DNA from: Bradyrhizobiaceae bacterium
GTDB lineage: Bacteria > Pseudomonadota > Alphaproteobacteria > Rhizobiales > Xanthobacteraceae
Assembly: GCA_947479905.1 (NCBI GenBank)
Contig: CANKBJ010000017.1
Span: 1-37,173, forward strand
Direction: 5' to 3'
Length of the DNA: 37,173 nt
Below, piece after piece: positions 6,251 through 22,089 of this stretch (its first letter is position 1; every line of letters starts with the position of its first letter). The notes under the pieces are model-generated. The model saw only the letters and a list, made by a program, of their open reading frames with translations, searched no databases and had not been told where the DNA came from. The position numbers and the translations under genes were made by a program.

Positions 6251-7837
6251 TCAGCGCCGCATCATGCCGCCCAGCGTCCCGCGCACGATGGCGCGGCCGA
6301 TGGTGCCGCCGGTTTTGCCGCCGAGCGACTTGCCGAGATCGGCGGCAATCTGACCGGCGACGCGGTTGGCGATCGAGCGCGTCACTTCGCGCGCGACCAG
6401 TTGCCCGGTCGACAGGCGGGTGCCACGTGGCGTCGAGGAGCCGAAAATTCCGCCGAGGAATCCGCCAATGCCGCCGAGAATGCCGCCGCCAGCCGATGCC
6501 GGCTGAGGCTGACCGGGCGCCGGCGCAGTGGCCGCAGTGGTCCCGTCCTTCAGCCTTTGCTGCAGGACCTCATAGGCGGACTCCGAATCGATTTGCTGTT
6601 CGTATTTGCCCTTCACCGGGCTCGCCTGAATGATCGCCTTGCGCTCTTCCGGCGTGATGACGCCAAGGCGGGCCGTGGGCGGGCAGATCATCGCCCGTTC
6701 GACCAGCGACGGTATGCCGTTGCCTTCCAGGAAAGAGACGAGCGCTTCGCCTTTGCCAAGTTCCATGATGATCTTGGCGGTATCGAGCTTGGGATTGGCG
6801 CGGAACGTCTCGGCCGCGGCCTTGACCGCCTTCTGGTCGCGCGGCGTGAAGGCGCGCAGTGCGTGCTGCACGCGATTGCCCATTTGCGCCAGGACCGTGT
6901 CCGGCACGTCGAGCGGATTCTGGGTGATGAAATAGACGCCGACGCCTTTTGAGCGGATCAGGCGCACGACCTGCTCGATCTTGTCGAGCAGGGGCTTGGG
7001 CGCGTCGTTGAACAGCAGATGCGCCTCGTCGAAGAAGAACACCAGTTTCGGCTTTTCCGGATCGCCCAGTTCCGGCATCTGCTCGAACAGCTCCGACAGC
7101 AGCCAAAGCAGAAACGTGCCGTAGAGCCTCGGATTTTCAATCAGCTTGTCGGCGGCGAGAATGTTGACGTAGCCGCGGCCCTCGCGGTCGGTGCGCATGA
7201 AATCCGACAACGCTAGCGCCGGCTCACTGAAGAACTTAGTGCCGCCTTGGTTTTCCAGCACCAGCAACTGACGTTGAATGGTGCCGACGCTGGCCTTCGA
7301 CACATTGCCATATTGCGTCGTCAACTCGGCGGCGTGGTCGGCGATCAGCGACAGCACCGCGCGCAAATCCTTGAGGTCGAGCAGGATCAGTCCCTGTTCG
7401 TCGGCGATGCGGAAGGCGATGTTCAGCACGCCTTCCTGCACGTCGTTGAGATCGAGCAGTCGGGACAAAAGCAACGGGCCCATTTCCGAAATGGTGGCGC
7501 GGATAGGATGGCCCTGGACGCCAAACAGATCCCACAGCATGGCGGGGAAGCGGTCAGGTTCGTAGTCGAAACCCATGTCCTTGGCGCGCTTGACCAGAAA
7601 ATCCTTGGGCTCGCCGGTGGCGGAAATGCCGGACAAGTCGCCCTTAACGTCGGCGGCAAAGACCGGGACACCGGCCCGCGAAAAGCCTTCCGCCAGAACC
7701 TGTAATGTGACGGTCTTGCCGGTGCCCGTGGCCCCGGAAATGAGACCATGCCGGTTGGCGAGCTTCAGCGTCAGGTACTCGGCCTTGTCGCCGCTTTTGC
7801 CGACAAATATCTTGCCGTCCTGTTCGACCGCGCTCAT
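6251..7837 (-). CDS. HerA/YjgR-type ATPase (DUF853)
   Basis: A 528-residue AAA+-like ATPase of the FtsK/HerA superfamily, YjgR branch. The Walker A motif GATGTGKT lies at residues 35-42, and a Walker B strand [12 protein letters not shown] lies near the middle. A Gly-rich segment near residue 480 ([17 protein letters not shown]) precedes an Arg-rich C-terminal helix region, as in this family. The start was moved inward from the longest frame to the ATG giving [14 protein letters not shown], which has GGGGTGA before it and matches the family beginning. The cellular role of the family is poorly defined; DNA or nucleic-acid translocation is only assumed from HerA. It lies 94 bases downstream of soxR on the same strand but is not an expected sulfur-oxidation gene. 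Confidence 0.9.
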
Positions 7838-7931: not shown

Positions 7932-8276
7932 CTAGCGCTTGCGCTGCTTGCGGCAGAAGACGTCATAGATCGCGCCGATGACGACACGGGCTTCGTCGCT
8001 GGCAAGATTGTAATAGATGGCTTTGCCGTCGCGCCGCGTCGACACCAGCCCATCGGCACGCAGCCGCGCCAGTTGCTGCGATACGGTCGGCTGGCGCAGC
8101 GAAAGAATTTCTTCCAGTTCGCTCACCGATTTCTCGCCTTCGGCGAGAATGCAAAGGATCATCAGCCGGCTTTCATGCGCCAGGGCTTTTAGAAAGTCGC
8201 TCGCACGCCTGGCGTTGCCGACCATGCGTTCGAGCTCTTGCGGACGCCCGCTGCTTTCAATCTGCTGCAAGTTCAT
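7932..8276 (-). CDS. soxR: SoxR, ArsR-family sulfide/persulfide-responsive repressor
   Basis: A 114-residue winged-helix regulator of the ArsR/SmtB family. It is not the iron-sulfur SoxR of oxidative stress. Recognition-helix region: [19 protein letters not shown] (about 60-78), wing: [11 protein letters not shown]. It carries exactly two cysteines, C42 ([10 protein letters not shown]) and C108 (YDVFCRKQ). These positions match the cysteine pair of BigR and SqrR, known to form a polysulfide or disulfide link that releases DNA. It lies 37 bases after soxS, likely in one leftward transcript, facing soxV. The most likely role is repression of the sox genes until reactive sulfur appears, acting at the four sites listed separately. 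Confidence 0.9.
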
Positions 8277-8313
8277 CGGTCACCAACGGACGAATTGTTG
8301 TATTTTGCGATAA

Positions 8314-8700
8314 TCACGAACGGCCTTCGACGCCGGGGGATACTTCGAGTTTCTTGATCATTGCGCCGAGAAATCCCCAGAAATGCTCCTCACCCGGATA
8401 GCCGCGAATGCGGCCGATCTCGCGTCCCTTGTCGATCAAGACGAACAACGGCGTCAACCGTTCGTTCTGTATAAAGGCCAGGTCGGGCGGCCGCGCCCGG
8501 TCTGTATCGACGCGCCGCAATGGCGCGCGTTTGCCTTCGTCGGTTTTATCATAGACCGGCGCGATTTCGCGGTCGAAGACGGCGCACCAGACGCAACCGG
8601 CCTGTTCGAACATCACCAGCTCGGCGGCGCGCGCCGGATAAGACGTCAGCGTGATAAACATCACGCAAACGGCCGCAGTGTAAGAAAAATATTTCATCAT
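8314..8700 (-). CDS. soxS: SoxS, periplasmic thioredoxin-like protein
   Basis: A 128-residue exported thioredoxin-fold protein. The N-terminal signal peptide runs to about residue 26 (ends YPARAAE). The redox motif CVWC is at C36-C39 in FEQAGCVWC, and a cis-Pro loop (RLTPLFVLID) follows. In Paracoccus, SoxS reduces SoxY-linked thiols and keeps the Sox system active, receiving electrons from SoxV. Here it is divergent from soxV across a 116-base gap containing a candidate SoxR site, and is followed by soxR. No clear ribosome site is visible before either of the two adjacent ATG codons at its start. Confidence 0.88.
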   Translation of the reverse strand: MMKYFSYTAAVCVMFITLTSYPARAAELVMFEQAGCVWCAVFDREIAPVYDKTDEGKRAPLRRVDTDRARPPDLAFIQNERLTPLFVLIDKGREIGRIRGYPGEEHFWGFLGAMIKKLEVSPGVEGRS

Positions 8701-8774
8701 TTGTAAATATCTAGCAGGTTTGTTCTGTCGCTTATTCGGTGGATAAAACCAAGGCGGCTTGCTTCCGCATCTTA

Positions 8775-8796
8775 TATATCATTAATAACGAATATG
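8775..8796. promoter_or_regulatory. Candidate SoxR operator, soxS/soxV
   Basis: TATATCA-N8-GAATATG in the divergent soxS-soxV gap, 20 bases before the soxV start. The right half is identical to the soxY site, while the left half keeps only the outer ATAT. Spacing is the same eight bases as in the other three sites. Confidence 0.55.
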
Positions 8797-8816
8797 TCGA
8801 TGAAAGGTCGCCGACG

Positions 8817-9551
8817 ATGAGTCTCGATGTCTCGGTCGGCGGCGCCTTTGTCGCGGGGCTTCTTTCGTTCGCGTCGCCCTGCGTTTTGCCGTTAGTGCCG
8901 CCATATCTGGCTTACATGGGCGGCGTCTCGATCGCGGAATTGCGCGCCGGAGACGGTGTACCGGGGCGATGGCGTGTGCTGAGAGCGGCGCTTGGTTTTG
9001 TCGCCGGCTTTTCAAGCGTGTTCGTGGCGCTCGGTGCGACGGCGTCGTTTATCGGGCAGGTGGTTGGCGCCTATCTCGGACTTCTCGGTTACGTCGCCGG
9101 CATTCTGCTCATTATCATGGGCCTGCATTTTGTCGGCGTCTTGCGCATCTCGCTGCTCGATCGCACCGCGCGCGTTGGCGTGGCGCGCGAGCCGGCCGGA
9201 ATTGCCGGTGCTTACGCGATCGGCCTTGCATTCGGCTTTGGCTGGTCACCTTGCGTCGGGCCCGTCCTGACCGCGATCCTGCTGATGGCCGGCGCGTCGG
9301 AAAGCGCGACCGAGGGCGCGTGGCTGTTGCTGGTCTATTCGGCTGGCATCGGCGTACCGTTCCTTGTCGCTGCCGCCTTCGCCGGGGCATTCATGCGCTG
9401 GAGCGCGCGGTTTCGCCCGCAACTCGGCAGAATCGAAAAGGCGATGGGTGTGTTTCTGATTGTCGCCGGCGTGCTGATTTTCACCGGGCAGATGCCGGCG
9501 ATTGCCTTTTGGCTGATCGAGACCTTTCCGGGATTGGGCAAGCTTGGCTGA
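8817..9551 (+). CDS. soxV: SoxV, CcdA/DsbD-type thiol-electron membrane transporter
   Basis: A 244-residue inner-membrane protein of the CcdA family with about six membrane spans. The two conserved cysteines are present: C22 in FASPCVLPLVPPY and C146 in GWSPCVGPV, each followed by proline-containing helices as in CcdA and DsbD. It carries reducing power from cytoplasmic thioredoxin to periplasmic SoxS and SoxW. The start was set at the ATG giving MSLDVSVGGAF, with AAAGG about nine bases before it; the longer frame start would add a polar segment across the SoxR site. It is the first rightward gene of the island. Confidence 0.92.
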   Translation: MSLDVSVGGAFVAGLLSFASPCVLPLVPPYLAYMGGVSIAELRAGDGVPGRWRVLRAALGFVAGFSSVFVALGATASFIGQVVGAYLGLLGYVAGILLIIMGLHFVGVLRISLLDRTARVGVAREPAGIAGAYAIGLAFGFGWSPCVGPVLTAILLMAGASESATEGAWLLLVYSAGIGVPFLVAAAFAGAFMRWSARFRPQLGRIEKAMGVFLIVAGVLIFTGQMPAIAFWLIETFPGLGKLG

Positions 9552-10920: not shown

Positions 10921-11667
10921 CTAACCGAACCGGAACGCCAGCAGATTATCGAACGAACGCAATTCGATCAGAATGCGATGCAATAGATTGCTGTCGCGTG
11001 TGGTGATTGCGCCGGGGATCAACTCGAGCCCGGCCCTGGCGCCATCGACCAGCCGGCGGAATTCCGGGCTGTTGTGAACGGTCGCGCTGGCGATGCTGTC
11101 GCAACGGTCGAGGATATAGCCGTAGATCGAGGCCTTGTTGGCGATGGCGAAGCGCACCTGCGGCTTGCTCCAGTCGAGGGCATTGTCGTTGTAGAGCATC
11201 AGGGCATCGGCAGCGGCATTGGCGTCACGCACGCAGTCGGCCAGCACGACGATACCGCTTGCCTTGCGCAGATCGTAAAGGTCGCCGCGAATGGCACTGA
11301 GCGACTGGCTGGCGGCATCGGCGCGGCCGGACTTGAGCATCATGTCGGCGGCGACGAGGCGCGCGCCGATGTTGACAAGGGTGGTGCCGTAAAGCGCTAT
11401 GCCGGCGAAGGCATCCGGCGCCTTGCCGGAAAAACGCGCGTTGAGTTTCGCCCAGGCGTCGCGCAGCCGATCGAATTCGAGCGAGGCGAGGTCGGTATTG
11501 CCGGTGCGCAGATAGCCGATAACCACCCGATTGTGCCCGGCGGCTTTTTCCACTGCCGCGTTGAAATCGGCCAGATCGCCGGCGCGAGCGAGGCCAGGAC
11601 TTGCCAGCAGGGCAAAACCCAGAATGGCAGGGCCGAGGACTGCGATACGCGCAAAGCTGACCGGCAT
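10921..11667 (-). CDS. Exported protein of unknown function in the sox island
   Basis: A 248-residue protein I do not recognise. It starts with a clear Sec signal peptide (hydrophobic 8-26, cleavage likely after GLARA). The mature part is mostly helical, with no CXXCH, no CXXC and only two cysteines, in LADCVRDAN and LDRCDSIAS, about 40 residues apart. Charged helices such as EFDRLRDAWAKLNARF and a tail LHRILIELRSFDNLLAF suggest a soluble periplasmic helical bundle. It is divergent from soxW across 100 bases holding a candidate SoxR site, so it is probably induced with the Sox system. GGTGA lies six bases before the ATG. A helical scaffold or binding role is only a guess. Confidence 0.75.
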   Translation of the reverse strand: MPVSFARIAVLGPAILGFALLASPGLARAGDLADFNAAVEKAAGHNRVVIGYLRTGNTDLASLEFDRLRDAWAKLNARFSGKAPDAFAGIALYGTTLVNIGARLVAADMMLKSGRADAASQSLSAIRGDLYDLRKASGIVVLADCVRDANAAADALMLYNDNALDWSKPQVRFAIANKASIYGYILDRCDSIASATVHNSPEFRRLVDGARAGLELIPGAITTRDSNLLHRILIELRSFDNLLAFRFG

Positions 11668-11767: not shown

Positions 11768-12343
11768 ATGAACTTATCACGGCGGCATCTCTTGCTCGGG
11801 GCTGTGGCAACCGGGGTTCTGGGCGCGCCCGTGGCGCGCGCCGACGATCCGGTGCTGACCGATGACGGGCTCTACAAGCAATCCTGGTTTCTGGAAAGCT
11901 TCCTCGATTTGCCGGAAGACCTTGAGGACGCCCGCAAGGCAGGCAAGCGCTTCGTCGTTATGTGGGAGCTTAAAGGCTGCCCGTATTGCAAGGAAACGCA
12001 TTTCGTCAATTTCGCCAAGCCGGAGATTTCCAACTACATCAAGGCCAATTTCGAGATTCTTCAACTCAACATCATTGGTTCGCGCATCGTGACCGATTTC
12101 GACGGAGCAAAGCTGTCGGAAAAGGAAATGGCGGCGAAATACGGCGTGCGATTCACCCCGACCTTCCAGTTCTTCGCCGAGCGAGCCGGGCCGTTGAAAA
12201 ATGAGCCGCCACAGAAACGAGAGGTTGCGCGCGCGCCGGGCTATCTGCGGCCCGAGGATTTTCTCAGCATGTTCCGCTACGTTCGGGAAAAAGCCTATCG
12301 CGACAAGAGCTTCCGCGAATATGTCAAAGCCCTGCCGAGCTGA
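11768..12343 (+). CDS. soxW: SoxW, periplasmic thioredoxin
   Basis: A 191-residue thioredoxin-fold protein with a Tat-like signal (SRRHLLLGAVATGVLG, cleavage near VARA). The redox motif CPYC lies at C71-C74 in WELKGCPYCKETHF, followed by the thioredoxin cis-Pro segment VRFTPTFQFF. SoxW in Paracoccus is a thioredoxin reduced through SoxV and is coded next to it. Here it leads the rightward soxW-soxY side of the island, but soxY has its own promoter region with a SoxR-type site 141 bases downstream. No strong ribosome site is visible. Confidence 0.88.
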   Translation: MNLSRRHLLLGAVATGVLGAPVARADDPVLTDDGLYKQSWFLESFLDLPEDLEDARKAGKRFVVMWELKGCPYCKETHFVNFAKPEISNYIKANFEILQLNIIGSRIVTDFDGAKLSEKEMAAKYGVRFTPTFQFFAERAGPLKNEPPQKREVARAPGYLRPEDFLSMFRYVREKAYRDKSFREYVKALPS

Positions 12344-12401: not shown

Positions 12402-12429
12402 TTGACCTCTTCGCTGCCGTCGTTATGGT
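12402..12429 (+). promoter_or_regulatory. Candidate sigma-70-type promoter of soxYZ-XA
   Basis: TTGACC, a 16-base spacer and TATGGT, placed directly after the perfect SoxR-type site and about 56 bases before the soxY ATG. The -35 box matches the consensus at five of six positions; the -10 box is weaker. Confidence 0.45.
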
Positions 12430-12484
12430 CGTCGGTGAAGGGGCTTCGTGTCGGCCCTGCAACGATTTTCGGGAGGTACTATCC

Positions 12485-12940
12485 ATGCGGCATCTGACTC
12501 GTCGCGCCGCCCTGGCGCTCGGCGCCGGAAGCGCTGCCATCACTCTGGTTGGCTGGAACGGCGGCGCGTTCGCCACGCCGCAGGCCGCCGCCGATGACAT
12601 CGCCAAATTCACCGGTGGCGCGACGCCCGAGAAGGGCAAGATTTCGATCGAACTGCCGGAGATTGCCGAGAACGGCAATACCGTGCCGCTGTCGTTCGCG
12701 GTCGATGCGCCGATGACCGGGACCGATTATGTCAGCGATGTGCTGGTGGTTGCCGAAGGCAATCCGAATCCGGGCGTGGCGACGTTTCACTTCACGCCGC
12801 TGTCGGGCAAGGCCGAAGCCGCGACCCGCATCCGGCTTGCCACCACGCAGAACATCGTTGTCGTCGCCAAGACCAGCGGCGGCAAATTTTACACCGGGCA
12901 AAAACTGGTCAAGGTCACCATCGGCGGTTGTGGCGGCTGA
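12485..12940 (+). CDS. soxY: SoxY, sulfur-carrier subunit
   Basis: A 151-residue periplasmic carrier protein. It ends in the defining GGCGG motif, with the sulfur-binding C149 on a flexible tail, to which thiosulfate sulfur is attached and processed. The N-terminus has a Tat-type signal (LTRRAALALGAGSAA, cleavage near AFATP), needed to export folded SoxYZ together. The start is the ATG with GGGAGG eight bases before it; the longer frame start upstream is ignored because it would place a Cys-rich stretch before the signal. It is followed by soxZ after 59 bases. Confidence 0.97.
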   Translation: MRHLTRRAALALGAGSAAITLVGWNGGAFATPQAAADDIAKFTGGATPEKGKISIELPEIAENGNTVPLSFAVDAPMTGTDYVSDVLVVAEGNPNPGVATFHFTPLSGKAEAATRIRLATTQNIVVVAKTSGGKFYTGQKLVKVTIGGCGG

Positions 12941-12999: not shown

Positions 13000-13323
13000 A
13001 TGGCCGAAACGCCGAAGATCAGAGTTCCCAAGACCGCCAAGAAGGGCGAAATCGTCGAAATCAAGACGCTGTTGCCGCACATCATGGAAAGCGGCCAGCG
13101 CAAGGACAAAGACGGCAAGACCATTCCGCGCAAGATCATCAACAAATTCGCGGCCGAGTTCAACGGCAAGCCGGTGTTTTCGGCCAATATCGAGCCGGCG
13201 GTCGCGGCCAACCCCTATTTGCAGTTCTCCGCGAAGGTCGAGGAGAGTGGCACGTTCAAGTTCAGCTGGACGGACGATGACGGTTCGGTCACCACCGCGG
13301 AAGAAAAAATAACCGTATCCTGA
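13000..13323 (+). CDS. soxZ: SoxZ, partner subunit of SoxY
   Basis: A 107-residue immunoglobulin-like beta protein that dimerises with SoxY and travels with it through the Tat system, so it has no signal of its own. The family pattern is clear: PKIRVPKTAKKGEIVEIKTLL at the start, HIMESGQRKD, IPRKIINKF and the end KFSWTDDDGS. It has no cysteine. AGGAG precedes the ATG by about seven bases. It sits between soxY and the soxXA fusion, in the usual YZA order. Confidence 0.97.
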   Translation: MAETPKIRVPKTAKKGEIVEIKTLLPHIMESGQRKDKDGKTIPRKIINKFAAEFNGKPVFSANIEPAVAANPYLQFSAKVEESGTFKFSWTDDDGSVTTAEEKITVS

Positions 13324-13398
13324 CCGGTCGATTGCCGCGCGCAATGTCGCGCGGTCTAAGCTATAAAAAAAAGACATCAGGTCTGGGAGGATTCGGCC

Positions 13399-14655
13399 AT
13401 GCGTGGAAAGTTTTTGGCAGTCGGAGTAGCCGCTGCCGCGTCGATGATGGCCAGCGTCATCGTCACCGATTCAGGCGCGCGGGCCCAGTCGAAGGCGCCG
13501 CTTGGACTCGGGCAGGATGCCGCCGCGCGGCCGTGGAAACGCTATCCGGGCTGGCCGGCCGCCGATTACTCGAAATACAACACGCTCGGAAAGCTGGCGA
13601 CCGCGCCGGCGCCGAAAGAGCCGCGCAAACTGACCGGCCCGGTCGGTGGCGACGCCGCCAATGGCGCCAAACTGGTCGCCGACCGCTCGCGCGGCGGATC
13701 CTGCCTGGCTTGTCATGTGATGGGTCCGGCCGGCAACGCCGATCTGCCGGGTAACGTCGCGCCCGATCTGTCGGAAATCGGCAATGCCGGCCGCGAGGAC
13801 GAGTGGCTCTACAATTACGTCTTCGATGCGCGCGTCTACAATCCGGAAACCGTGATGCCGCCCTGGGGCAGCCACGGCTTTTTCTCGGAGGCCGAAATCA
13901 AGGACATCGTCGCCTTCCTCAAGACGCTGAAGTCGCCGGCTGTGTTCCGGACCGCGCTCGACAATCCCGAGAAGCGTCCGCAGCCGGTCGAGAAGCGCGA
14001 CAATCTCGATCCGCTTGAAAATCCCGGCATGTGGGCGGTCGAAAAAGGCGAGGAGCTTTGGAAGCTGAAAAGCGCCTCGGGCTTCTCCTGCAACACCTGC
14101 CATAGCGATCCGAAAACGTCCTTCAAGACCTGGGCGGCGTCGATGCCGAAATGGGAGCCGCGCCTCAACAAGGTGCTGGGCGTCGAGGAGTTCGTCACCC
14201 GCCATGCTCGCACCACCATCGGCGTCGACTGGCCGATGGAAACCGACAACAATCGCGCCATGTCGGTGTATCTGCATTTCCTCGCCAATGGCACGCCGAT
14301 TAAGGTCGATACCGAAAGCGCCGAAGCCAAAGCCGCGATCGCGCGCGGCGTTGAGCTGAGCAAGCGCAAGGTCGGCGCGCTCAACATGGCCTGCACCGAT
14401 TGCCACGGCATCGCGGTCAACAAGTGGATTCGCGGCCAGTGGATGGGCGAGCCGAAGGGTCAGTACGATCACTTCCCGACCTGGCGTACCAGCCTGCTGG
14501 CGATCTGGGATATCCGCCAGCGCTTCCAGTGGTGCTCGGTCAATATTCGTGGCGACGAACTGCCGCCGGATTCCAAGGAATATGGCGATCTGGAATTGTA
14601 TCTCGCCTCGCAGAACCAGGGCCTGACGATGAGCGTGCCCGGCATTCGCCATTGA
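13399..14655 (+). CDS. soxXA: SoxX-SoxA fusion, triheme cytochrome c
   Basis: One 418-residue chain joining two proteins that are normally separate. A Sec signal ends near residue 30. The SoxX part (about 85-183) has heme motif C102-L-A-C105-H106, then GNVAPDLSEIGN and NPETVMPPWG with the likely Met ligand M153. A charged Pro/Glu linker (about 185-208) leads to the SoxA part, with heme motifs C231-N-T-C234-H235 and C332-T-D-C335-H336 and the active-site Cys C379 in RQRFQWCSVNIR, the residue known in SoxA to bind sulfur. SoxXA joins thiosulfate oxidatively to SoxY C149. No separate soxX exists in the window. The usual Cys ligand of SoxA heme 1 is missing; H269 sits there. GGGAGG precedes the ATG. 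Confidence 0.93.
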   Translation: MRGKFLAVGVAAAASMMASVIVTDSGARAQSKAPLGLGQDAAARPWKRYPGWPAADYSKYNTLGKLATAPAPKEPRKLTGPVGGDAANGAKLVADRSRGGSCLACHVMGPAGNADLPGNVAPDLSEIGNAGREDEWLYNYVFDARVYNPETVMPPWGSHGFFSEAEIKDIVAFLKTLKSPAVFRTALDNPEKRPQPVEKRDNLDPLENPGMWAVEKGEELWKLKSASGFSCNTCHSDPKTSFKTWAASMPKWEPRLNKVLGVEEFVTRHARTTIGVDWPMETDNNRAMSVYLHFLANGTPIKVDTESAEAKAAIARGVELSKRKVGALNMACTDCHGIAVNKWIRGQWMGEPKGQYDHFPTWRTSLLAIWDIRQRFQWCSVNIRGDELPPDSKEYGDLELYLASQNQGLTMSVPGIRH

Positions 14656-14788: not shown

Positions 14789-16477
14789 ATGATCACACGC
14801 CGGGAAATGCTTCAGGTCAGCGCCGCGACCGCGGCGCTCGCAGCAGGCGCGGGCGGTTTATCGCGCGCCTTCGCCCAGCAGCGACTGACGCAGGACGATC
14901 TCACCCGCTTCGATGCGGTCGGCAATGTCACGCTGCTGCATGTCACCGATATCCACGGCCAGTTGATGCCGGTCTATTTCCGCGAGCCGAGCGTCAATCT
15001 CGGCGTCGGCGCGGCGAAGGGGCTGCCGCCGCATCTGACCGGCACGGATTTCCTCACCAAGTTCGGGATCGCGCCGAAATCGGCCGCGGCCTATGCGATG
15101 ACCGATCGGGACTTCACCGCGCTTGCTAAAAGCTACGGCAAGATCGGCGGCCTCGATAGGCTGGCGACGGTGGTCAAGCAGGTGCGTGCCGAACGCGACG
15201 GCAAAGTTCTGCTGCTCGACGGCGGCGATACCTGGCAGGGGTCGCTTGGCGCCAATTCGAGCCGCGGCCAGGACATGGTCGACTGCATGGCGCTTTTGAA
15301 GCCGGACGCCATGACCGGCCATTGGGAATTCACCTATGGCGAAGCGCGGGTGCAGGAACTGGTCAAGAGCCTGGATTTCCCGTTTCTGGCGTTGAACATC
15401 CGCGACACGGAATGGAACGAGCCGGTGTTCGACGCGGTCAAGATGTTCGAGAAGGGCGGCGTCAAGATCGCCGTGCTCGGTCAGGCCTTCCCCTATACGC
15501 CGGTCGCCAATCCGCGCTGGATGATGTCGAAGTGGTCCTTCGGCATTCGCGAGGAGGAAGTGCGCGCCCAGGTCGACAAGGCGCGCGCCGCCGGTGCGCA
15601 ACTCGTCGTGCTGTTGTCTCATAACGGCTTCGACGTCGATCGCAAGCTCGCCTCGCGCGTCGCTGGCATCGACGTCATTCTGACGGGGCACACGCACGAC
15701 GCGCTGCCGGAAGCGGTGACGGTCGGCAAGACATTGCTGATCGCCTCGGGCAGCCACGGCAAATTCGTCTCGCGGCTCGATCTCGACGTGCAGGGCGGAG
15801 CAGTCAAATCGTATCGCTACAAACTGATCCCGCTATTTGCCGACGTCATAAAGCCGGATGCCGCGATGACGGCCGCTGTCACCAAGGCGCGGGCGCCTTA
15901 CGCCAAGGAACTATCGCGCGTCGTCGGGCACGCGGATTCGCTGTTGTACCGGCGTGGCAATTTCAACGGAACGTTCGACGATCTGATCTGCGCGGCGCTG
16001 TTGAAAGAGCGCGATGCCGAGATCGCGCTGTCGCCCGGCTTCCGCTGGGGCACTAGCGTGCTGCCGGGCGCGCCGATCACGGTCGAGGACATCCACAACG
16101 CCACCGCGATCACCTATCCGCAGGTCTACCGGCTGGCGATGACCGGCGAGCGGCTGAAGGAAATCCTGGAGGACGTCGCCGACAATCTGTTCAATCCCGA
16201 TCCGTATTACCAGCAGGGCGGCGACATGGTGCGCTGCGGCGGGCTTGGGTATTCGATCAATGTCGCAAAACCGATCGGGCAGCGCATTTCCGGCATGACC
16301 CACCTGAAAGCCGGCAAACCGATCGATCCGCGGCGTGAATACACGGTCGCCGGCTGGGCCAGCGTCAACGAAGGCACGCAAGGGCCGAATATCTGGGATC
16401 TGGTGGAGCGTCATATCGCATCGCAAAAGACGGTACGGGTCGCGCCGAATTCATCGGTGAAAATATCCGGTATCTAG
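14789..16477 (+). CDS. soxB: SoxB, dimanganese thiosulfohydrolase
   Basis: A 562-residue periplasmic hydrolase of the 5'-nucleotidase superfamily that releases sulfate from SoxY-bound thiosulfonate. A Tat-type signal (ITRREMLQVSAATAALAAG) ends near FAQQ. Metal and active-site motifs are D54-I-H56-G, GGDTWQGS (about 145-152), the SoxB-specific GHWEFTYG (177-184), LLSHNGFDVD and GHTHDALPE. Size and motif order are typical. It lies 133 bases after soxXA. The only ribosome-like site is a weak GAGAG. A half-conserved SoxR-type pattern upstream was judged too weak to list. Confidence 0.97.
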   Translation: MITRREMLQVSAATAALAAGAGGLSRAFAQQRLTQDDLTRFDAVGNVTLLHVTDIHGQLMPVYFREPSVNLGVGAAKGLPPHLTGTDFLTKFGIAPKSAAAYAMTDRDFTALAKSYGKIGGLDRLATVVKQVRAERDGKVLLLDGGDTWQGSLGANSSRGQDMVDCMALLKPDAMTGHWEFTYGEARVQELVKSLDFPFLALNIRDTEWNEPVFDAVKMFEKGGVKIAVLGQAFPYTPVANPRWMMSKWSFGIREEEVRAQVDKARAAGAQLVVLLSHNGFDVDRKLASRVAGIDVILTGHTHDALPEAVTVGKTLLIASGSHGKFVSRLDLDVQGGAVKSYRYKLIPLFADVIKPDAAMTAAVTKARAPYAKELSRVVGHADSLLYRRGNFNGTFDDLICAALLKERDAEIALSPGFRWGTSVLPGAPITVEDIHNATAITYPQVYRLAMTGERLKEILEDVADNLFNPDPYYQQGGDMVRCGGLGYSINVAKPIGQRISGMTHLKAGKPIDPRREYTVAGWASVNEGTQGPNIWDLVERHIASQKTVRVAPNSSVKISGI

Positions 16478-16558: not shown

Positions 16559-16598
16559 ATATGACGCTGCCGGGAGAGAACGCTGCCGGGAGTTGCCG

Positions 16599-17864
16599 AT
16601 GACGGATTCGAACGACGACACGCGGACATCGCGCCGCCGGTTTTTGACAGGTGCCGCAGGCCTTGCCGCCGCGGGCGCAACAGGCGCGGCGCATGCCGGA
16701 AATCCCAAAAATCTGCCGCCGAACATTGCCGCATGGAGCAAGACTCTGGGCGATGGCGTCGCGGTGCGGCCTTACGGGCACCCGTCGAAATTCGAGAAGA
16801 ACGTCATTCGCCGCGACGTGCAGTGGCTCACCGCCAGCCGCGAATCATCGGTCAGCTTTACGCCGCTGCATGAACTTGACGGCATCATCACGCCGAACGG
16901 GCTTTGTTTCGAGCGGCATCATTCCGGCATTGCCGAGGTCGATCCAGACGACTACCGGCTGATGATTCACGGTCTGGTCGACAGACCGCTGATCTTCACG
17001 CTCGACGACATCAAACGATTGCCGCGCGTCAACCGTATTTACTTCCTTGAGTGCGCCGCCAATACCGGCATGGAATGGCGCGGCGCGCAGCTCAATGGTT
17101 GCCAGTACACGCACGGCATGATCCACACCGTTCAATATACCGGCGTGCCATTGAAGCTTTTGCTCGAGCAGGCCGGCGTGAAGACCAATGGCAAATGGCT
17201 TCTGGTCGAAGGCGGCGATGCGTCCGGGCTCGATCGTTCGCTGCCGCTGGCCAAGGCGCTCGACGATTGCTTGATCGCCTACCGGCAGAACGGCGAGATG
17301 TTGCGGCCGGAGCAGGGCTATCCGGTGCGGCTCGTCGTGCCGGGCTGGCAGGGCAATATGTGGATCAAGTGGCTGCGCCGCATCGAAGTCGGCGACAAAC
17401 CCTGGTACACGCGCGAGGAGACCTCGAAATACACAGACCTGATGGAGAATGGCAAGGCGCGCAAATTCACCTTCGTGATGGATGCGAAGTCGGTCATTAC
17501 CTCGCCATCGCCGCAAGTGCCGGTCAAGCGCAAAGGCTTCCAGGTGATTTCGGGGCTGGCGTGGTCAGGCCGCGGTAAAATCAAGCGCGTCGACGTCTCG
17601 CTTGACGGCGGACGCAACTGGCGCGCCGCGCGCATCGATGGCCCCGTCCTCGACAAATGCTGTGTGCGTTTCTACGCGGAGGCCGAATGGAACGGCGAGC
17701 CCTGGCTGCTGCAATCGCGGGCCATGGACGAGACCGGCTATACGCAGCCGAGCAAGGACGCGCTTCGCAAAATTCGCGGCGTCAATTCGATCTATCACAA
17801 CAACGGCATCCAGACCTGGGCGCTCAAGGCCAACGGGGAGGTCGAGAATGTCGAAGTCGGTTAG
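16599..17864 (+). CDS. soxC: SoxC, molybdenum sulfane dehydrogenase subunit
   Basis: A 421-residue enzyme of the sulfite oxidase family that, with SoxD, oxidises the SoxY-bound sulfane sulfur and yields six electrons. A Tat signal is clear (TSRRRFLTGAAGLAAAG, cleavage near AHAG). The molybdenum-cofactor cysteine is C152 in YFLECAANTGMEW, followed by the Mo-co dimerisation domain. The start was set at ATG 16599, six bases after GGGAG; a TTG at 16593 directly touches that site and is not usable. The ribosome site region is a 16-base tandem duplication. The 3' end overlaps soxD by 17 bases. Presence of SoxCD implies full oxidation to sulfate without sulfur globules. Confidence 0.96.
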   Translation: MTDSNDDTRTSRRRFLTGAAGLAAAGATGAAHAGNPKNLPPNIAAWSKTLGDGVAVRPYGHPSKFEKNVIRRDVQWLTASRESSVSFTPLHELDGIITPNGLCFERHHSGIAEVDPDDYRLMIHGLVDRPLIFTLDDIKRLPRVNRIYFLECAANTGMEWRGAQLNGCQYTHGMIHTVQYTGVPLKLLLEQAGVKTNGKWLLVEGGDASGLDRSLPLAKALDDCLIAYRQNGEMLRPEQGYPVRLVVPGWQGNMWIKWLRRIEVGDKPWYTREETSKYTDLMENGKARKFTFVMDAKSVITSPSPQVPVKRKGFQVISGLAWSGRGKIKRVDVSLDGGRNWRAARIDGPVLDKCCVRFYAEAEWNGEPWLLQSRAMDETGYTQPSKDALRKIRGVNSIYHNNGIQTWALKANGEVENVEVG

Positions 17865-18531
17865 TTTGATCGTGGCCGCGCTGCTGCTGGCGTCGCCGGC
17901 AATGGCGCAGGACAAGACTCAAGTCGGTAAGAGCCCGCCCCGCAATTACGGCGTTGGGCAAGTTGCGACGCCGGCGCAAATTGCCGGATGGGACATCGAC
18001 GTTCGGCCGGACGGCGTGGGCGCGCCTGCCGGCAAAGGATCGGTCAAGGACGGCGAGAAGATCTATCTCGAAAAGTGCGCGGCCTGTCACGGCGAATTCG
18101 GCGAAAGCGCCGGGCGCTGGCCGCAACTGGCGCAGGGCAAGGGAACGCTGGCCTCGCACGATCCGGTCAAGACGGTCGGCTCGTATTTCCCCTATTTGTC
18201 GAGCGTGTTCGACTATGTCCGCCGCGCCATGCCGTTCGGCGATGCGCAGTCGCTGAGCAATGACGAGCTGTATGCGGTGGTCGCTTTCGTGCTCAATCTC
18301 AACGATATTGTCGACGACAAATTCGTGCTGTCGAAGGACACCTGGGCTCAGGTGAGGATGCCGAACGAGAGCGGCTTCTACGACGACGACCGAGAGAAGA
18401 GCGAGAAGGCGTTCTGGAACAGCAGGCCCTGCATGAAGGATTGCGGCCCGCCGGTTAAGATCACAGGGCATGCGGCGGTCATCGATGTGACACCGGAAGA
18501 CAAAACACCGCGCAAAGGCGGGGTCGAATAG
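17848..18531 (+). CDS. soxD: SoxD, one-heme cytochrome c subunit of sulfane dehydrogenase
   Basis: A 227-residue periplasmic cytochrome c, electron acceptor of SoxC. A signal peptide ends at MAQD (about residue 20). A single heme motif C77-A-A-C80-H81 is present in EKCAACHGEFGE, with MPFGDAQSLS supplying a likely Met ligand. The start overlaps the end of soxC by 17 bases, which fits translational coupling. The SoxD of Paracoccus is much longer, about 380 residues with two hemes, so this is a natural one-domain form. A CMKDC pair near the C-terminus is not a heme site. The frame upstream of this start is a soxC shadow. Confidence 0.93.
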   Translation: MSKSVSLIVAALLLASPAMAQDKTQVGKSPPRNYGVGQVATPAQIAGWDIDVRPDGVGAPAGKGSVKDGEKIYLEKCAACHGEFGESAGRWPQLAQGKGTLASHDPVKTVGSYFPYLSSVFDYVRRAMPFGDAQSLSNDELYAVVAFVLNLNDIVDDKFVLSKDTWAQVRMPNESGFYDDDREKSEKAFWNSRPCMKDCGPPVKITGHAAVIDVTPEDKTPRKGGVE

Positions 18532-18633: not shown

Positions 18634-18972
18634 ATGCGCCGGGCGATGCCTGCACGGAGATCGGCAACGCGACTTTTGGCGATGGCCGGCGGAATGGCTT
18701 TGGGCCTGCTCGCGTCGCCGGCGAGGACCGCCGATGTCGAATACGGCAAGCATCTATCCGCCGAGTGCATAACCTGTCACGGCGCATCAAAGTCGGACAG
18801 CACGATTCCGGATATTCACGGCCTCGGCGAAGCGCATTTTGTCGAAGTGCTGAGAGCTTACCGTGCCAAGGCGTTGCCCAATCCGGTGATGCAAAGCATC
18901 GCTGTCCGCCTGGGCGATGAGGAGATTTCAGCGCTCGCAGCCTATTACACGACGGCCAAAAGGCCGAAATAA
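18634..18972 (+). CDS. Small c-type cytochrome, FccA/SoxE-like
   Basis: A 112-residue exported monoheme class I cytochrome c. A twin-Arg or basic N-terminus leads a hydrophobic signal ending near ARTAD (about 33). The heme motif C45-I-T-C48-H49 lies in SAECITCHGASKSD, and a Met in NPVMQSI is the likely distal ligand. It stands 15 bases before the flavocytochrome c flavoprotein gene, so it is the expected heme partner that takes electrons from sulfide oxidation. FccA subunits are often diheme; this one-heme form resembles the SoxE type. GGGAGG lies eight bases before the ATG. Confidence 0.88.
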   Translation: MRRAMPARRSATRLLAMAGGMALGLLASPARTADVEYGKHLSAECITCHGASKSDSTIPDIHGLGEAHFVEVLRAYRAKALPNPVMQSIAVRLGDEEISALAAYYTTAKRPK

Positions 18973-18987
18973 CCACAAGGGGGCACC

Positions 18988-20268
18988 ATGACTAACATCA
19001 CACGCCGTCACTTTGGCATTATGGCCGGAGCGTCGCTATCGGCACTCGGCCTGCCGATCCTGTCTGCTCCATCGTTGGCGCAAGGCAAGCCGCGCGTCGT
19101 CGTTATCGGCGGCGGACCTGGCGGGGCAACCGCCGCCCGCTACATCGCCAAGGAATCGAACGGTGCGATTGACGTGACCTTGATCGAACCGCTCAAGACT
19201 TTCACCACCTGCTTCTTTTCCAATCTCTATGTCGGTGGCTTCCGCGATTACAAATCACTGACCCACAATTACGATAAAGTCAGGAAGGGTGGAGTCAAAG
19301 TCGTACATTCAATGGCCGCCTCGATCGACCGCGACAAGAAGCAGGTCGTTCTCGCCGGCGGCGGCAGGGTGCCTTACGACCGCTTGCTGGTCGCCCCCGG
19401 CATCGACATCAAGTTCGATTCGGTGCCCGGCTATTCGGAGAAAGCCGCGGAGGTCATGCCGCATGCCTGGAAGCCCGGCGCGCAGACCCAGCTTCTGGTC
19501 AAAAAGCTCAATGCGCTGAAAGACGGCGATCAGATCGTCATGATCGCGCCGCCGAATCCCTATCGTTGCCCGCCGGGACCCTATGAGCGGGTATCGATGT
19601 TTGCCCATGTGCTGAAGAAAAAGGGCTTCAAGAAGTCGCGTATCGTCATCCTCGATCCCAAGCCCGCTTTCTCCAAGCAGGGCGTTTTCACCGAAGGTTG
19701 GGAGAAGCATTACCCCGGCATGATCGAGTGGCAGGACCCGAAGATCCACGGCGGCATCAAGGGCGTCGATGCCAAGACCGGCGAGGTGAAGACCGACTTC
19801 ACCAATTACAAGCCTGCCTTGGTCAATGTCATCCCGGCGCAGATGGCCGGTAAGATCGCGCGCGATGCCGGTCTCGCTAACCAATCCGGCTTCTGCCCGA
19901 TCGACGCGGCGTCGATGAAGTCGACGGTCGATCCGAACATCTTCGTCGTCGGCGATGCCTCGATCGCCGGCGAGATGCCGAAGTCGGCTTTTTCAGCCAA
20001 CAGCCAGGCCAAGGTGGCCGCGATGGTCATTCGCGCCGAACTGACGAAGTCGCGGGCGTTCCCGGCGCGTTATTCCAATACGTGCTGGAGCCTGATCGCG
20101 CCCGACGACAACATCAAGGTGGGCGCCAGCTACGAGCCTGTCGATGGCGCCATCAAGGCGTCCAACAGCTTTGTCAGTCAGCGCAACGAAAGCGCCGACC
20201 TGCGCAAGCAGAACTACAAGGAATCGGTCGACTGGTACCAAGGCATCACGACCGATATTTTTGGCTAA
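18988..20268 (+). CDS. fccB: Flavocytochrome c sulfide dehydrogenase, flavoprotein subunit
   Basis: A 426-residue Tat-exported FAD protein (ITRRHFGIMAGASLSALG, cleavage near LAQG) that oxidises sulfide to sulfur or polysulfide in the periplasm; called SoxF in Paracoccus. The dinucleotide motif VVVIGGGPGGATAA lies at 37-50. C75 in TTCFFSNLYVGG is at the site of covalent FAD attachment known in Allochromatium FccB. C194 (YRCPPGPYER) and C366 (NTCWS) fit the redox-active disulfide of that family. VVGDASIAGEMPKSAF is the second FAD segment. It closes the soxC-D-E-F unit, with AAGGGGG before the ATG and a strong terminator after. Confidence 0.94.
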   Translation: MTNITRRHFGIMAGASLSALGLPILSAPSLAQGKPRVVVIGGGPGGATAARYIAKESNGAIDVTLIEPLKTFTTCFFSNLYVGGFRDYKSLTHNYDKVRKGGVKVVHSMAASIDRDKKQVVLAGGGRVPYDRLLVAPGIDIKFDSVPGYSEKAAEVMPHAWKPGAQTQLLVKKLNALKDGDQIVMIAPPNPYRCPPGPYERVSMFAHVLKKKGFKKSRIVILDPKPAFSKQGVFTEGWEKHYPGMIEWQDPKIHGGIKGVDAKTGEVKTDFTNYKPALVNVIPAQMAGKIARDAGLANQSGFCPIDAASMKSTVDPNIFVVGDASIAGEMPKSAFSANSQAKVAAMVIRAELTKSRAFPARYSNTCWSLIAPDDNIKVGASYEPVDGAIKASNSFVSQRNESADLRKQNYKESVDWYQGITTDIFG

Positions 20269-20391: not shown

Positions 20392-21378
20392 ATGACCAAG
20401 CTTAATCTTTCCGTCGCCGTCGGCCCCTATGACCGCACGCGCGCGCTCATCGACGGCTCCGTTCAGATTGACGGCGTCAATCCGTCCTGCATGACCCTGT
20501 CGCCTGAGGAAATTTTCTTCCGTGCCTTTCGCCATGCCGAATTCGATATTTGCGAATTGTCGCTATCGAGCTTCACGGTCAAGACAGCGCAAGGCGGCGG
20601 ACCTTACGTTGGCGTGCCGGCCTTTGTGTCGCGTGCCTTCCGCCACACCTCGATTTATGTGCGCACCGACCGCATCAAGAAACCGGAAGACCTCAAGGGC
20701 AAGCGCGTCGGCGTGCCGGAATATCAGCTCACCGCCAATGTCTGGGCGCGTGCCATTCTGCAGGACGACTACGGCGTCAAGCCGTCCGACATCCAGTGGG
20801 TGCGCGGCGGTATCGAGGATGCCGACCGGCCTGAAAAGATAAGCATCAAGCTTCCGCCCGACGTGAAGCTCGAGGATGCGCCCGCCGGCAAGTCGATCTC
20901 GGCGATGCTGGCGGAAGGCACGATCGATGCCTTCATCGCACCGCGTCCGCCGTCGCTGCCGAAGAACACGCCCAATGTCGGCTGGCTGTTTGCCGATCCC
21001 GTGGCCGCCGCCAAGGATTATTACAAGCGCACCGGCGTTTTTCCGATCATGCACATCGTCGGCGTGCGGCGCACCCTGGCCGAGCAGCATCCATGGCTGC
21101 CGGGCGCGGTGTTCAAGGCCTTCGATCAGTCGAAAGCGAAGGCACTTGAGCTTCTCAGCGACACCTCGGCGACCAAGGTGACGCTGCCGTTTATCGAGGA
21201 GCGGTTGGCCGAGGCGAAATCGCTGATGGGCGAGGACTTCTGGTCCTACGGCATCGAGCCGGCGCGCAAGACGCTGGAAAGCTTTTTCAAGCATCACCAC
21301 AGCCAGGGCCTGTCGGCGCGGCTGGTGACGCCGGAAGAGATGTTCCATCCGGGTACACACGAAGCCTTCAAGATCTAG
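20392..21378 (+). CDS. Periplasmic-binding-protein-like protein (4,5-dihydroxyphthalate decarboxylase-like annotation group)
   Basis: A 328-residue protein of the type 2 periplasmic-binding fold. Sequence style (LNLSVAVGPYDRTRALIDGSV, FDICELSLSSFTV, RIKKPEDLKGKRVGVPEY, LTANVWARAILQDDYGV) matches proteins commonly annotated as 4,5-dihydroxyphthalate decarboxylase or ABC substrate-binding protein. There is no signal peptide: the start is polar and the next strand is the first beta strand of the fold, so it is probably cytoplasmic. Whether it is an enzyme or a binder cannot be told. GGGA stands five bases before the ATG. It is followed 15 bases later by another binding-like gene, probably in one transcript. 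Confidence 0.8.
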   Translation: MTKLNLSVAVGPYDRTRALIDGSVQIDGVNPSCMTLSPEEIFFRAFRHAEFDICELSLSSFTVKTAQGGGPYVGVPAFVSRAFRHTSIYVRTDRIKKPEDLKGKRVGVPEYQLTANVWARAILQDDYGVKPSDIQWVRGGIEDADRPEKISIKLPPDVKLEDAPAGKSISAMLAEGTIDAFIAPRPPSLPKNTPNVGWLFADPVAAAKDYYKRTGVFPIMHIVGVRRTLAEQHPWLPGAVFKAFDQSKAKALELLSDTSATKVTLPFIEERLAEAKSLMGEDFWSYGIEPARKTLESFFKHHHSQGLSARLVTPEEMFHPGTHEAFKI

Positions 21379-21393
21379 CCGGGGAGCCAGGCG

Positions 21394-22089
21394 ATGGCGA
21401 CGATCAAAGTATTCAGCGGCGGGGCGCCGAAGGAAGTGTTCCTGCGGCTGTCGCCGGCCTTTGAGCAGCAGACCGGCCATAAGCTCGATTTCACCTTCGC
21501 CGTCATGTCGGTGCTGCGCGACAGGTTGGCGGCGGGCGAGAGAACCGACGTGCTGGTGATGCCGACGAATATTCTCGACGATTACGAGAAGAGCGGCGTC
21601 GCGCGTGGCGCGCACCGGGCGGTACTCGGTCTGGTCAGCGTCAATGCCGTGGTGCGCACCGGCGCGCCGATGCCCGATCTGTCGAGCCCGGACAGCGTCA
21701 AGCAGGCAATGTTGAATAGCCGCGCGATCGCGCATGCGACACCGGGTGCGACGCCGAGCGGTACGCATATGGGCAAGCTTCTCGATCAACTTGGTATTGT
21801 GGAGGCAATGAAGGGCAAGGTCATTCACCGGCCGGCGCTCGAGGGCGGTGTGCAACTGGTGGCGAGCGGCGAGGCCGATATCGGCTTCTATCCGAAAAGC
21901 GAAGTCATCAATATCGAAGGGCTGACGCTGGCGGGGCCGTTGCCGGCGGCGATCCAGCTCACGACCATTTACGGCGCGGCCGTTGCGTCGGCAAGCGCGG
22001 CGCCGGACGCGTCGGCGGCCTTCATTGGCTTTGTCACCGATCCGGAAAATCGCGGCGCCTGGGCGCAGGCCGGCTTCGACCAGCCGTAG
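21394..22089 (+). CDS. ModA-like substrate-binding-domain protein without signal
   Basis: A 231-residue protein with a small type 2 binding-protein fold resembling molybdate-binding ModA (IKVFSGGAPKEVFLRLSPAFEQQTGHKLDFTF; RTDVLVMPTNILDDYEKSG; HATPGATPSGTHMGKLLDQLGI; ADIGFYPKSEVI). It lacks a signal peptide, starting MATIKVFSGG directly at the first strand, so it is expected to be cytoplasmic or non-classically placed. GGGGAG lies eight bases before the ATG. It is 15 bases after the preceding binding-like gene. No ABC permease on this strand goes with it. The ligand is unknown. Confidence 0.8.
   Translation: MATIKVFSGGAPKEVFLRLSPAFEQQTGHKLDFTFAVMSVLRDRLAAGERTDVLVMPTNILDDYEKSGVARGAHRAVLGLVSVNAVVRTGAPMPDLSSPDSVKQAMLNSRAIAHATPGATPSGTHMGKLLDQLGIVEAMKGKVIHRPALEGGVQLVASGEADIGFYPKSEVINIEGLTLAGPLPAAIQLTTIYGAAVASASAAPDASAAFIGFVTDPENRGAWAQAGFDQP

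Follow-up and report, generated by a model that had tools for sequence, protein, structure and literature searches.

SoxXA cytochromes include a type I with a diheme SoxA and a type II in which SoxA lacks heme 1; the SoxAX of Starkeya novella (structure 3oa8, which we take to comprise the Starkeya SoxAX chains) is presumably of type II. SoxA is described as joining thiosulfate to its cysteine and handing it to SoxY (passages of PMC4423706, PMC6879331 and PMC9562282). For SoxAX this cysteine mechanism is extrapolated from TsdA. It is contested in the case of the Starkeya enzyme, which according to the accessible part of PMC4423706 is reported to be active without the cysteine and for which a copper mechanism has been proposed; the same text characterizes SoxXA as very resistant to mechanistic study.

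Searches of an open-access library turned up no account of a SoxX-SoxA fusion, the accessible passages of PMC9774590, PMC11582611 and PMC6397845 included, which is a weak negative. The name 'soxXA' in Hyphomicrobium denitrificans was rejected as a precedent, since soxA is Hden_0703 there and the accessible text of PMC10451225 mentions no fusion, and "SoxX-SoxA" in the available excerpts of PMC6382920 and PMC3440390 denotes neighbouring genes. Here we describe a fused soxXA gene in a sox cluster of a Bradyrhizobiaceae bacterium (contig CANKBJ010000017.1; "the window" denotes the whole analyzed stretch of 37,173 nucleotides).

The fused soxXA gene and its sox cluster

On translation, positions 13399-14655 give a single stop-free frame of 418 codons. 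The encoded protein matches the NCBIfam profiles of SoxX (TIGR04485, residues 99-177, 79.7 bits with a cut-off of 61) and SoxA (TIGR04484, residues 209-417, 156.7 bits with a cut-off of 110). The preliminary description of an uninterrupted SoxX-SoxA frame therefore holds, both profiles standing side by side over their cut-offs and the SoxX match lying inside the residues 85-183 that had been assigned to this domain. The best separate SoxA per genome scores 117-261 bits on TIGR04484, and more than 200 bits in 15 of 16 genomes. The chain contains three CxxCH heme motifs (C102-C105-H106, C231-C234-H235 and C332-C335-H336). The SoxX heme residues, Met153 and the active-site Cys379 are all as previously claimed, by sequence and alignment, and the position of Met153 is Met in 41/41 separate SoxX rows. 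In the PDB, the fused protein matches by sequence the SoxA and SoxX chains from Rhodovulum, Paracoccus and Starkeya. When the sequence was read by eye, no second signal peptide was seen in the linker. Between the signal peptide and the SoxX domain is a conserved segment with five invariant residues (P45, W46, R48, Y49, W52), to which no family is assigned.

Table 1. Features of the fused soxXA gene and of the surrounding sox cluster in the window
Feature	Position	Strand	Evidence
ArsR/SmtB-family regulator, soxR position	7932..8276	-	BigR model below its cut-off
soxS position, CVWC motif	8314..8700	-	position; no NCBIfam match
soxV (DsbD/CcdA-type membrane protein)	8739..9551	+	PF02683
thioredoxin-like protein, soxW position	11768..12343	+	PF13098; no NCBIfam match
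soxY, true GGCGG-arm type	12425..12940	+	TIGR04488 143.4 bits, cut-off 125
soxZ	13000..13323	+	TIGR04490 113.9 bits, cut-off 76
GGGAGGA ribosome-binding-like stretch, 7 bases upstream of ATG	13385..13391	+	by eye
soxXA, SoxX-SoxA fusion (triheme cytochrome c), 418 aa	13399..14655	+	translation, profiles, alignment
Sec-type signal peptide, residues 1-30, end ARAQ	13399..13488	+	by eye
conserved pre-SoxX segment, residues 31-83	13489..13647	+	alignment of fused proteins
SoxX cytochrome c domain, residues 84-178	13648..13932	+	TIGR04485; structural match 1h32_B
SoxX heme motif CLACH, residues 102-106	13702..13716	+	sequence, alignment
Met153, distal ligand of SoxX heme by homology	13855..13857	+	invariant in fused alignment
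linker, residues 179-208	13933..14022	+	fused alignment, model
diheme SoxA domain, residues 209-418	14023..14652	+	TIGR04484; structural match 1h31_A
SoxA heme 1 motif CNTCH, residues 231-235	14089..14103	+	sequence, SoxA alignment
His269, in place of distal Cys of SoxA heme 1	14203..14205	+	SoxA alignment
SoxA heme 2 (active site) motif CTDCH, residues 332-336	14392..14406	+	sequence, SoxA alignment
Arg375, active-site Arg 4 residues N-terminal to Cys	14521..14523	+	SoxA alignment; passages of PMC4423706
Cys379, active-site residue, heme 2 ligand by homology	14533..14535	+	SoxA alignment
soxB thiosulfohydrolase	14789..16477	+	TIGR04486 855.8 bits, cut-off 550
soxC	16593..17864	+	TIGR04555 648.7 bits, cut-off 420
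cytochrome c, soxD position	17848..18531	+	Pfam; no NCBIfam match
small cytochrome c, fccA position	18634..18972	+	PF00034 barely above cut-off
fccB, flavocytochrome c sulfide dehydrogenase flavoprotein	18988..20268	+	PF21706, PF09242

The gene order in the window is soxR and soxS (both on the minus strand), soxV, soxW, soxY, soxZ, soxXA, soxB, soxC, soxD, a cytochrome c gene and fccB, where soxR, soxS, soxW and soxD are named by position. In three same-family clusters whose genes are separate (L047, L048, L099), the arrangement is soxW-soxX-soxY-soxZ-soxA-soxB-soxC; by comparison, the window set lacks soxX before soxY and carries the fusion in the soxA slot. In two other clusters (L035 and L080) the fused gene stands before soxY instead of in the soxA slot. 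The proteins of the three separate-gene clusters are 73-74% (SoxB) and 75-77% (SoxC) identical to those of the window, and 30-32% (SoxA) and 32-34% (SoxX) identical to the respective parts of the fusion.

Several neighbouring genes were also recorded. A 248-aa protein without a Pfam match is encoded between soxV and soxW (10921-11667, minus strand); it is present in 28 of 32 fused stretches (absent in L027, L029, L035 and L080) and, at 33-51% identity, in the same-family separate-gene clusters L045, L047, L048 and L099. Two substrate-binding-protein genes follow fccB (20392-22089, plus strand) and are common to many fused clusters. In two fused stretches (L020, L024) soxB is directly followed by a substrate-binding-protein gene, and no soxC, soxD or fccB match lies between them.

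Occurrence of the fusion and of separate soxX genes

Scanning a single genome for each species yielded 27 loci, to which the window and a plasmid locus were added. This set contains 29 full-length fused proteins, two of them from a single locus (L027), the fused protein of another locus (L031) being truncated by the end of its stretch. No stop codons across the linker were found in any of the 29 full-length proteins, window included, and all 29 members of set A2 (again with the window) match both families at E<=1e-10. The other fused rows are 53-90% identical to the window protein (29 rows of alignment A1, which relative to the full-length set leaves out L015 and takes in L051 and L080). The L015 frame extends beyond the usual end, to 457 residues. 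An in-frame gap removes the SoxX heme motif in the fusion of L029 (7869-9056), a Bradyrhizobium tropiciagri draft; this loss may be an error, as the contig is a draft. Locus L027 bears two fused soxXA genes in tandem (6416-7678 and 8001-9188).

The fusion is thus confirmed and is no assembly error. The source genome, a metagenome bin in 266 contigs and 86.85% complete, would by itself allow for an assembly or sequencing artefact; the other 28 full-length fused proteins are continuous, one of them on the complete plasmid of Indioceanicola profundi (L035), and the fusion is present in genomes of one contig (G263) and four contigs (G142, G034). Because independent assemblies carry the same fusion, the artefact reading is refuted, with next to no chance of being correct.

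The survey of related genomes that had been suggested for the same fusion found it in relatives of the source organism. The full fusion occurs in 22 of 296 genomes of the family draw, plus one genome (G279) where a contig end truncates it; the genus of the window accounts for G279 and for 18 of the 22, and other genera for the remaining 4. In the class and phylum draws, 2 of 385 genomes (the own genome and G422) and 1 of 398 (the own genome) have the fusion, counting only matches listed at E<=1e-10. The own genome is counted in all three draws, which overlap, and a single query was used, so an independent fusion of very different sequence could escape these counts. Genus g25 gave one match past E 1e-60 among 146 genomes, a frame with three CxxCH motifs. 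The check for further fusions was made frame by frame for frames of about 380 residues and up. It covered 16 genomes, 14 chosen for long SoxA frames and 2 as extra phylum cases; in all of them the SoxX and SoxA matches are separate and the frame lengths differ, and these candidates were rejected. Four loci (L078, L081, L082, L099) were rejected as fusions likewise, their SoxX and SoxA matches standing apart.

In the own genome, a profile search of the 266 contigs (86.85% complete) detected no second SoxX and no SoxA other than the fused gene over the cut-offs; a single further SoxX match, on a different contig, is far under the cut-off (22.2 bits). The reported absence of a separate soxX is therefore borne out for the assembled part of this genome. 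The fusion-bearing genomes number 24 when G279 is counted. Fourteen of them, G263, G142 and G034 included, lack any further SoxX over the cut-off, and 10 possess an additional, separate one. Such additional soxX genes had no place in the earlier picture. In nine of the ten, the extra soxX and soxA adjoin a gene for an AACIE-type SoxY and no soxB lies within the stretch examined (loci of this kind are L081, L092-L097, L107, L109 and L110). The extra SoxX of the tenth genome (G216) is of the ordinary kind; soxX-soxY and soxZ-soxA occupy two different contig ends there, and no soxB was seen within 20 kb. The SoxY and SoxZ of this genome (L108, L111), which adjoin the ordinary soxX and soxA, are 77% and 80% identical to those of the window.

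The extra clusters of the nine genomes resemble soxX2Y2Z2A2F2, the second sox cluster of Starkeya novella; according to the accessible part of PMC3797975, neither the SoxAX nor the SoxYZ of that cluster was detected. The Starkeya genes are separate, unlike the fusion, and the extra clusters described here are distinguished by their AACIE-type SoxY and the lack of soxB in the stretch.

Heme ligands, linker and structural model

The column of His269 is His in 32/32 fused rows and in none of the 57 separate SoxA rows, which have Cys (52), Ser (3), Glu (1) or a gap (1); these counts include near-copies, L036-L044 being alike and L025 and L050 apparently representing one contig of 82321 bases. Paracoccus pantotrophus (L101) has Cys in this column. 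We take it that heme 1 in solved SoxA structures has this Cys as its distal ligand; heme 1 of the fused protein may accordingly be His/His-ligated, and so held differently. A fused copy outside the 32-row count (G1117), with three CxxCH motifs, reads TRHAKATTG, so that it has His here as well.

The active-site Cys is present in all 89 SoxA rows (32/32 fused, 57/57 separate) and the active-site Arg in 32/32 fused and 55/57 separate rows. The catalytic residues named in the cited SoxA literature are present in the fused protein. W378, which adjoins the active-site Cys, is found in 32/32 fused rows and in 1 of 57 separate ones. The preliminary description was right about the diheme SoxA with its active-site Cys, but overlooked His269. 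Overall, the two halves are 24-35% (SoxA) and 29-43% (SoxX) identical to the aligned separate rows.

Separate SoxA proteins without the heme 1 CxxCH motif were observed in nine genomes of genus g25 (L036-L044). The main states of heme 1 among the aligned rows are accordingly a distal Cys, loss of the motif (these nine) and a distal His (all fused rows).

The linker contains nine residues that are invariant in the fused alignment (P180, D188, P190, R193, P196, E198, R200, D204, N208). Over its 30 codons, comparison of the window with L030, its nearest relative, gives 5 synonymous and no non-synonymous differences, and the non-synonymous differences between the window and seven relatives range from 0 to 8. 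A structural model was built from alignment A3 (28 fused, 45 SoxA and 41 SoxX rows; heme columns checked) and reached a pLDDT of 87.7 and a pTM of 0.86, with block means of 85-92 over residues 181-210 and values below 50 for residues 1-29. What had been called a charged linker does exist, but is better described as a conserved segment that is ordered in the model.

Modelled residues 195-418 match 1h31_A (Z 25.0, 1.7 A over 221 residues) and residues 68-178 match 1h32_B (Z 12.1, 3.1 A over 103 residues). SoxA of 3oa8 matches with Z 22.8, and TsdA and TsdBA are weak structural matches. A first model based on 29 rows reached a pLDDT of only 64.0; its structure search gave the same SoxA chains.

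History, proposed function and relation to known enzymes

In a quick tree of 69 rows (18 of the 32 fused and 51 of the 57 separate rows), the SoxA halves of all 18 fused rows group as a single clade (SH-aLRT 100), on a long stem of 2.03 changes per site. The same clade was recovered in a careful tree of 43 rows (14/14 fused rows, 100/100), whose 14 fused and 29 separate rows were also used for the grouping tests. The SoxX halves (17 fused and 49 separate rows) need one change, with a one-clade support of only 44 on 116 columns. One clade of the SoxB proteins from fused clusters is rejected (37 rows; AU p = 0.00028, 0% of 200 bootstrap trees), the AU tests having been chosen after the quick trees had shown the conflict. 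The careful SoxB tree was built without L036 and L041, which the quick one included. Eleven of the 14 fused-cluster SoxBs form one clade (100/100), and those of L027, L035 and L080 are placed elsewhere, among separate-type clusters. The conflict is thus due to three clusters outside the family, where soxXA and soxB do not share one history. This conflict between the fused gene and the history of its cluster had escaped the preliminary description, which had recognized the fusion itself. We infer that it was caused by transfer of soxXA; a transfer of soxB, or an old duplication followed by losses, is possible.

Where the fused gene came from is less firmly indicated. It may have formed in the family of the window from the resident soxX and soxA, changed fast and later reached L027, L035 and L080, in which case no outside gene took the place of anything in the family. 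We hold this origin to be somewhat less likely than not. In its favour, the surrounding cluster is otherwise the family's own, and the test does not reject (p = 0.235) a grouping of all fused SoxAs with five separate rows chosen as closest by SoxB, so that a family origin with fast change is compatible with the trees. Against it, holding them with three of these five rows gives p = 0.04, and the best SoxA tree places the fused clade, with its long stem, outside all 29 separate rows used. Grouping the fused SoxAs of the family with its separate SoxAs, to the exclusion of L027, L035 and L080, gave an AU p of 3e-80, which means only that the fused rows inside and outside the family belong together. 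We regard as rather unlikely another history, in which an old duplicate SoxXA was fused once and then lost many times, the SoxB conflict reflecting transfers of soxB and not of soxXA. The single clade on a long stem and the co-occurrence of another soxX in 10 of 24 fused genomes would agree with it, but the sparse spread over class and phylum would require many losses, and the fused gene occupies the soxA slot in the family and the place before soxY in L035 and L080.

With regard to function, the working enzyme could consist of two chains, if the product is cut in the periplasm or if SoxA restarts in-frame. M211 can be read as a start, but an internal start would deprive SoxA of a signal peptide, and the invariant residues and high model confidence of the linker also make two chains improbable. 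It is equally hard to credit that the substrate or carrier is another sulfur compound in place of thiosulfate and SoxYZ. The low identity of both halves to separate proteins and the W378 of all fused rows, found in only one separate row, speak for such a change; the true-type SoxY, SoxZ, SoxB and SoxC of the same cluster, which we count in favour of a SoxXA role in the Sox pathway, and the 14 fused genomes without another SoxX over the cut-off speak against it.

We therefore consider it likely that the gene encodes a single-chain SoxXA acting on thiosulfate and SoxYZ, which originated once and was carried into sox clusters outside the family. One signal peptide would direct the export of a single chain, to which three hemes would then be attached, and the linker would fix SoxX at a defined place on SoxA. 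Thiosulfate would bind at heme 2 of the SoxA half, be oxidatively joined to Cys379 and be passed to the Cys of SoxYZ. The electrons would presumably reach a soluble cytochrome by way of the Met-ligated heme in the built-in SoxX half. The adjoining SoxB and SoxCD would finish the oxidation to sulfate. The fused gene may have arisen once, as a SoxA branch with His for Cys distal to heme 1, and would have moved as one gene into the outside clusters. The more specific proposal, a self-contained triheme SoxXA of single origin in which heme 1 went from His/Cys to His/His and which replaces the two-gene enzyme in resident sox operons, seems to us evenly poised between right and wrong.

The fixed 1:1 ratio of SoxX to SoxA proposed earlier follows from the single frame, provided that the chain stays uncut. 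The suggestion that the fusion replaces assembly factors found no backing: SoxAX is described as heterodimeric in the accessible part of PMC4423706, and SoxK has been described as a stabiliser of type III enzymes (passages of PMC4891895). SoxXA starts the Sox pathway, and a one-chain form would be easier to make at a fixed ratio. Comparison of the three heme 1 states could test the role of this heme with the active-site Cys held constant, and a roving His/His SoxXA, if real, would be a natural test of the same question. The conflict between the SoxA and SoxB trees also suggests that single components are exchanged between sox clusters.

A precedent for joining a SoxA-family catalytic cytochrome to an electron-accepting one is TsdBA of Marichromatium purpuratum (5lo9; passages of PMC9774590). 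The reaction of TsdBA is the interconversion of thiosulfate and tetrathionate, and the diheme TsdB, not SoxX, forms its acceptor half; the N-terminal half of the fused protein has one heme motif and matches SoxX. The Starkeya SoxAX (3oa8) shares the SoxA fold with the fusion, but is listed as diheme with two chains, whereas the fusion has three heme motifs in one chain. Loss of the heme 1 motif, the mark of type II, is not seen in the fusion, where C231, C234 and H235 are present. The closest enzymes are the type I SoxXAs of Rhodovulum sulfidophilum and Paracoccus pantotrophus (1h31, 1h32, 2c1d), which like the fusion combine a monoheme SoxX with a diheme SoxA, the active-site Cys and Arg and the fold of both halves; the P. 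pantotrophus enzyme (L101) shares the sox cluster context as well. The SoxA half carries the two CxxCH motifs of type I but has a distal His instead of Cys at heme 1, in one chain instead of two, and its cluster has no soxX before soxY. By these sequence features, the fused protein is a new SoxXA variant that probably works like SoxXA.
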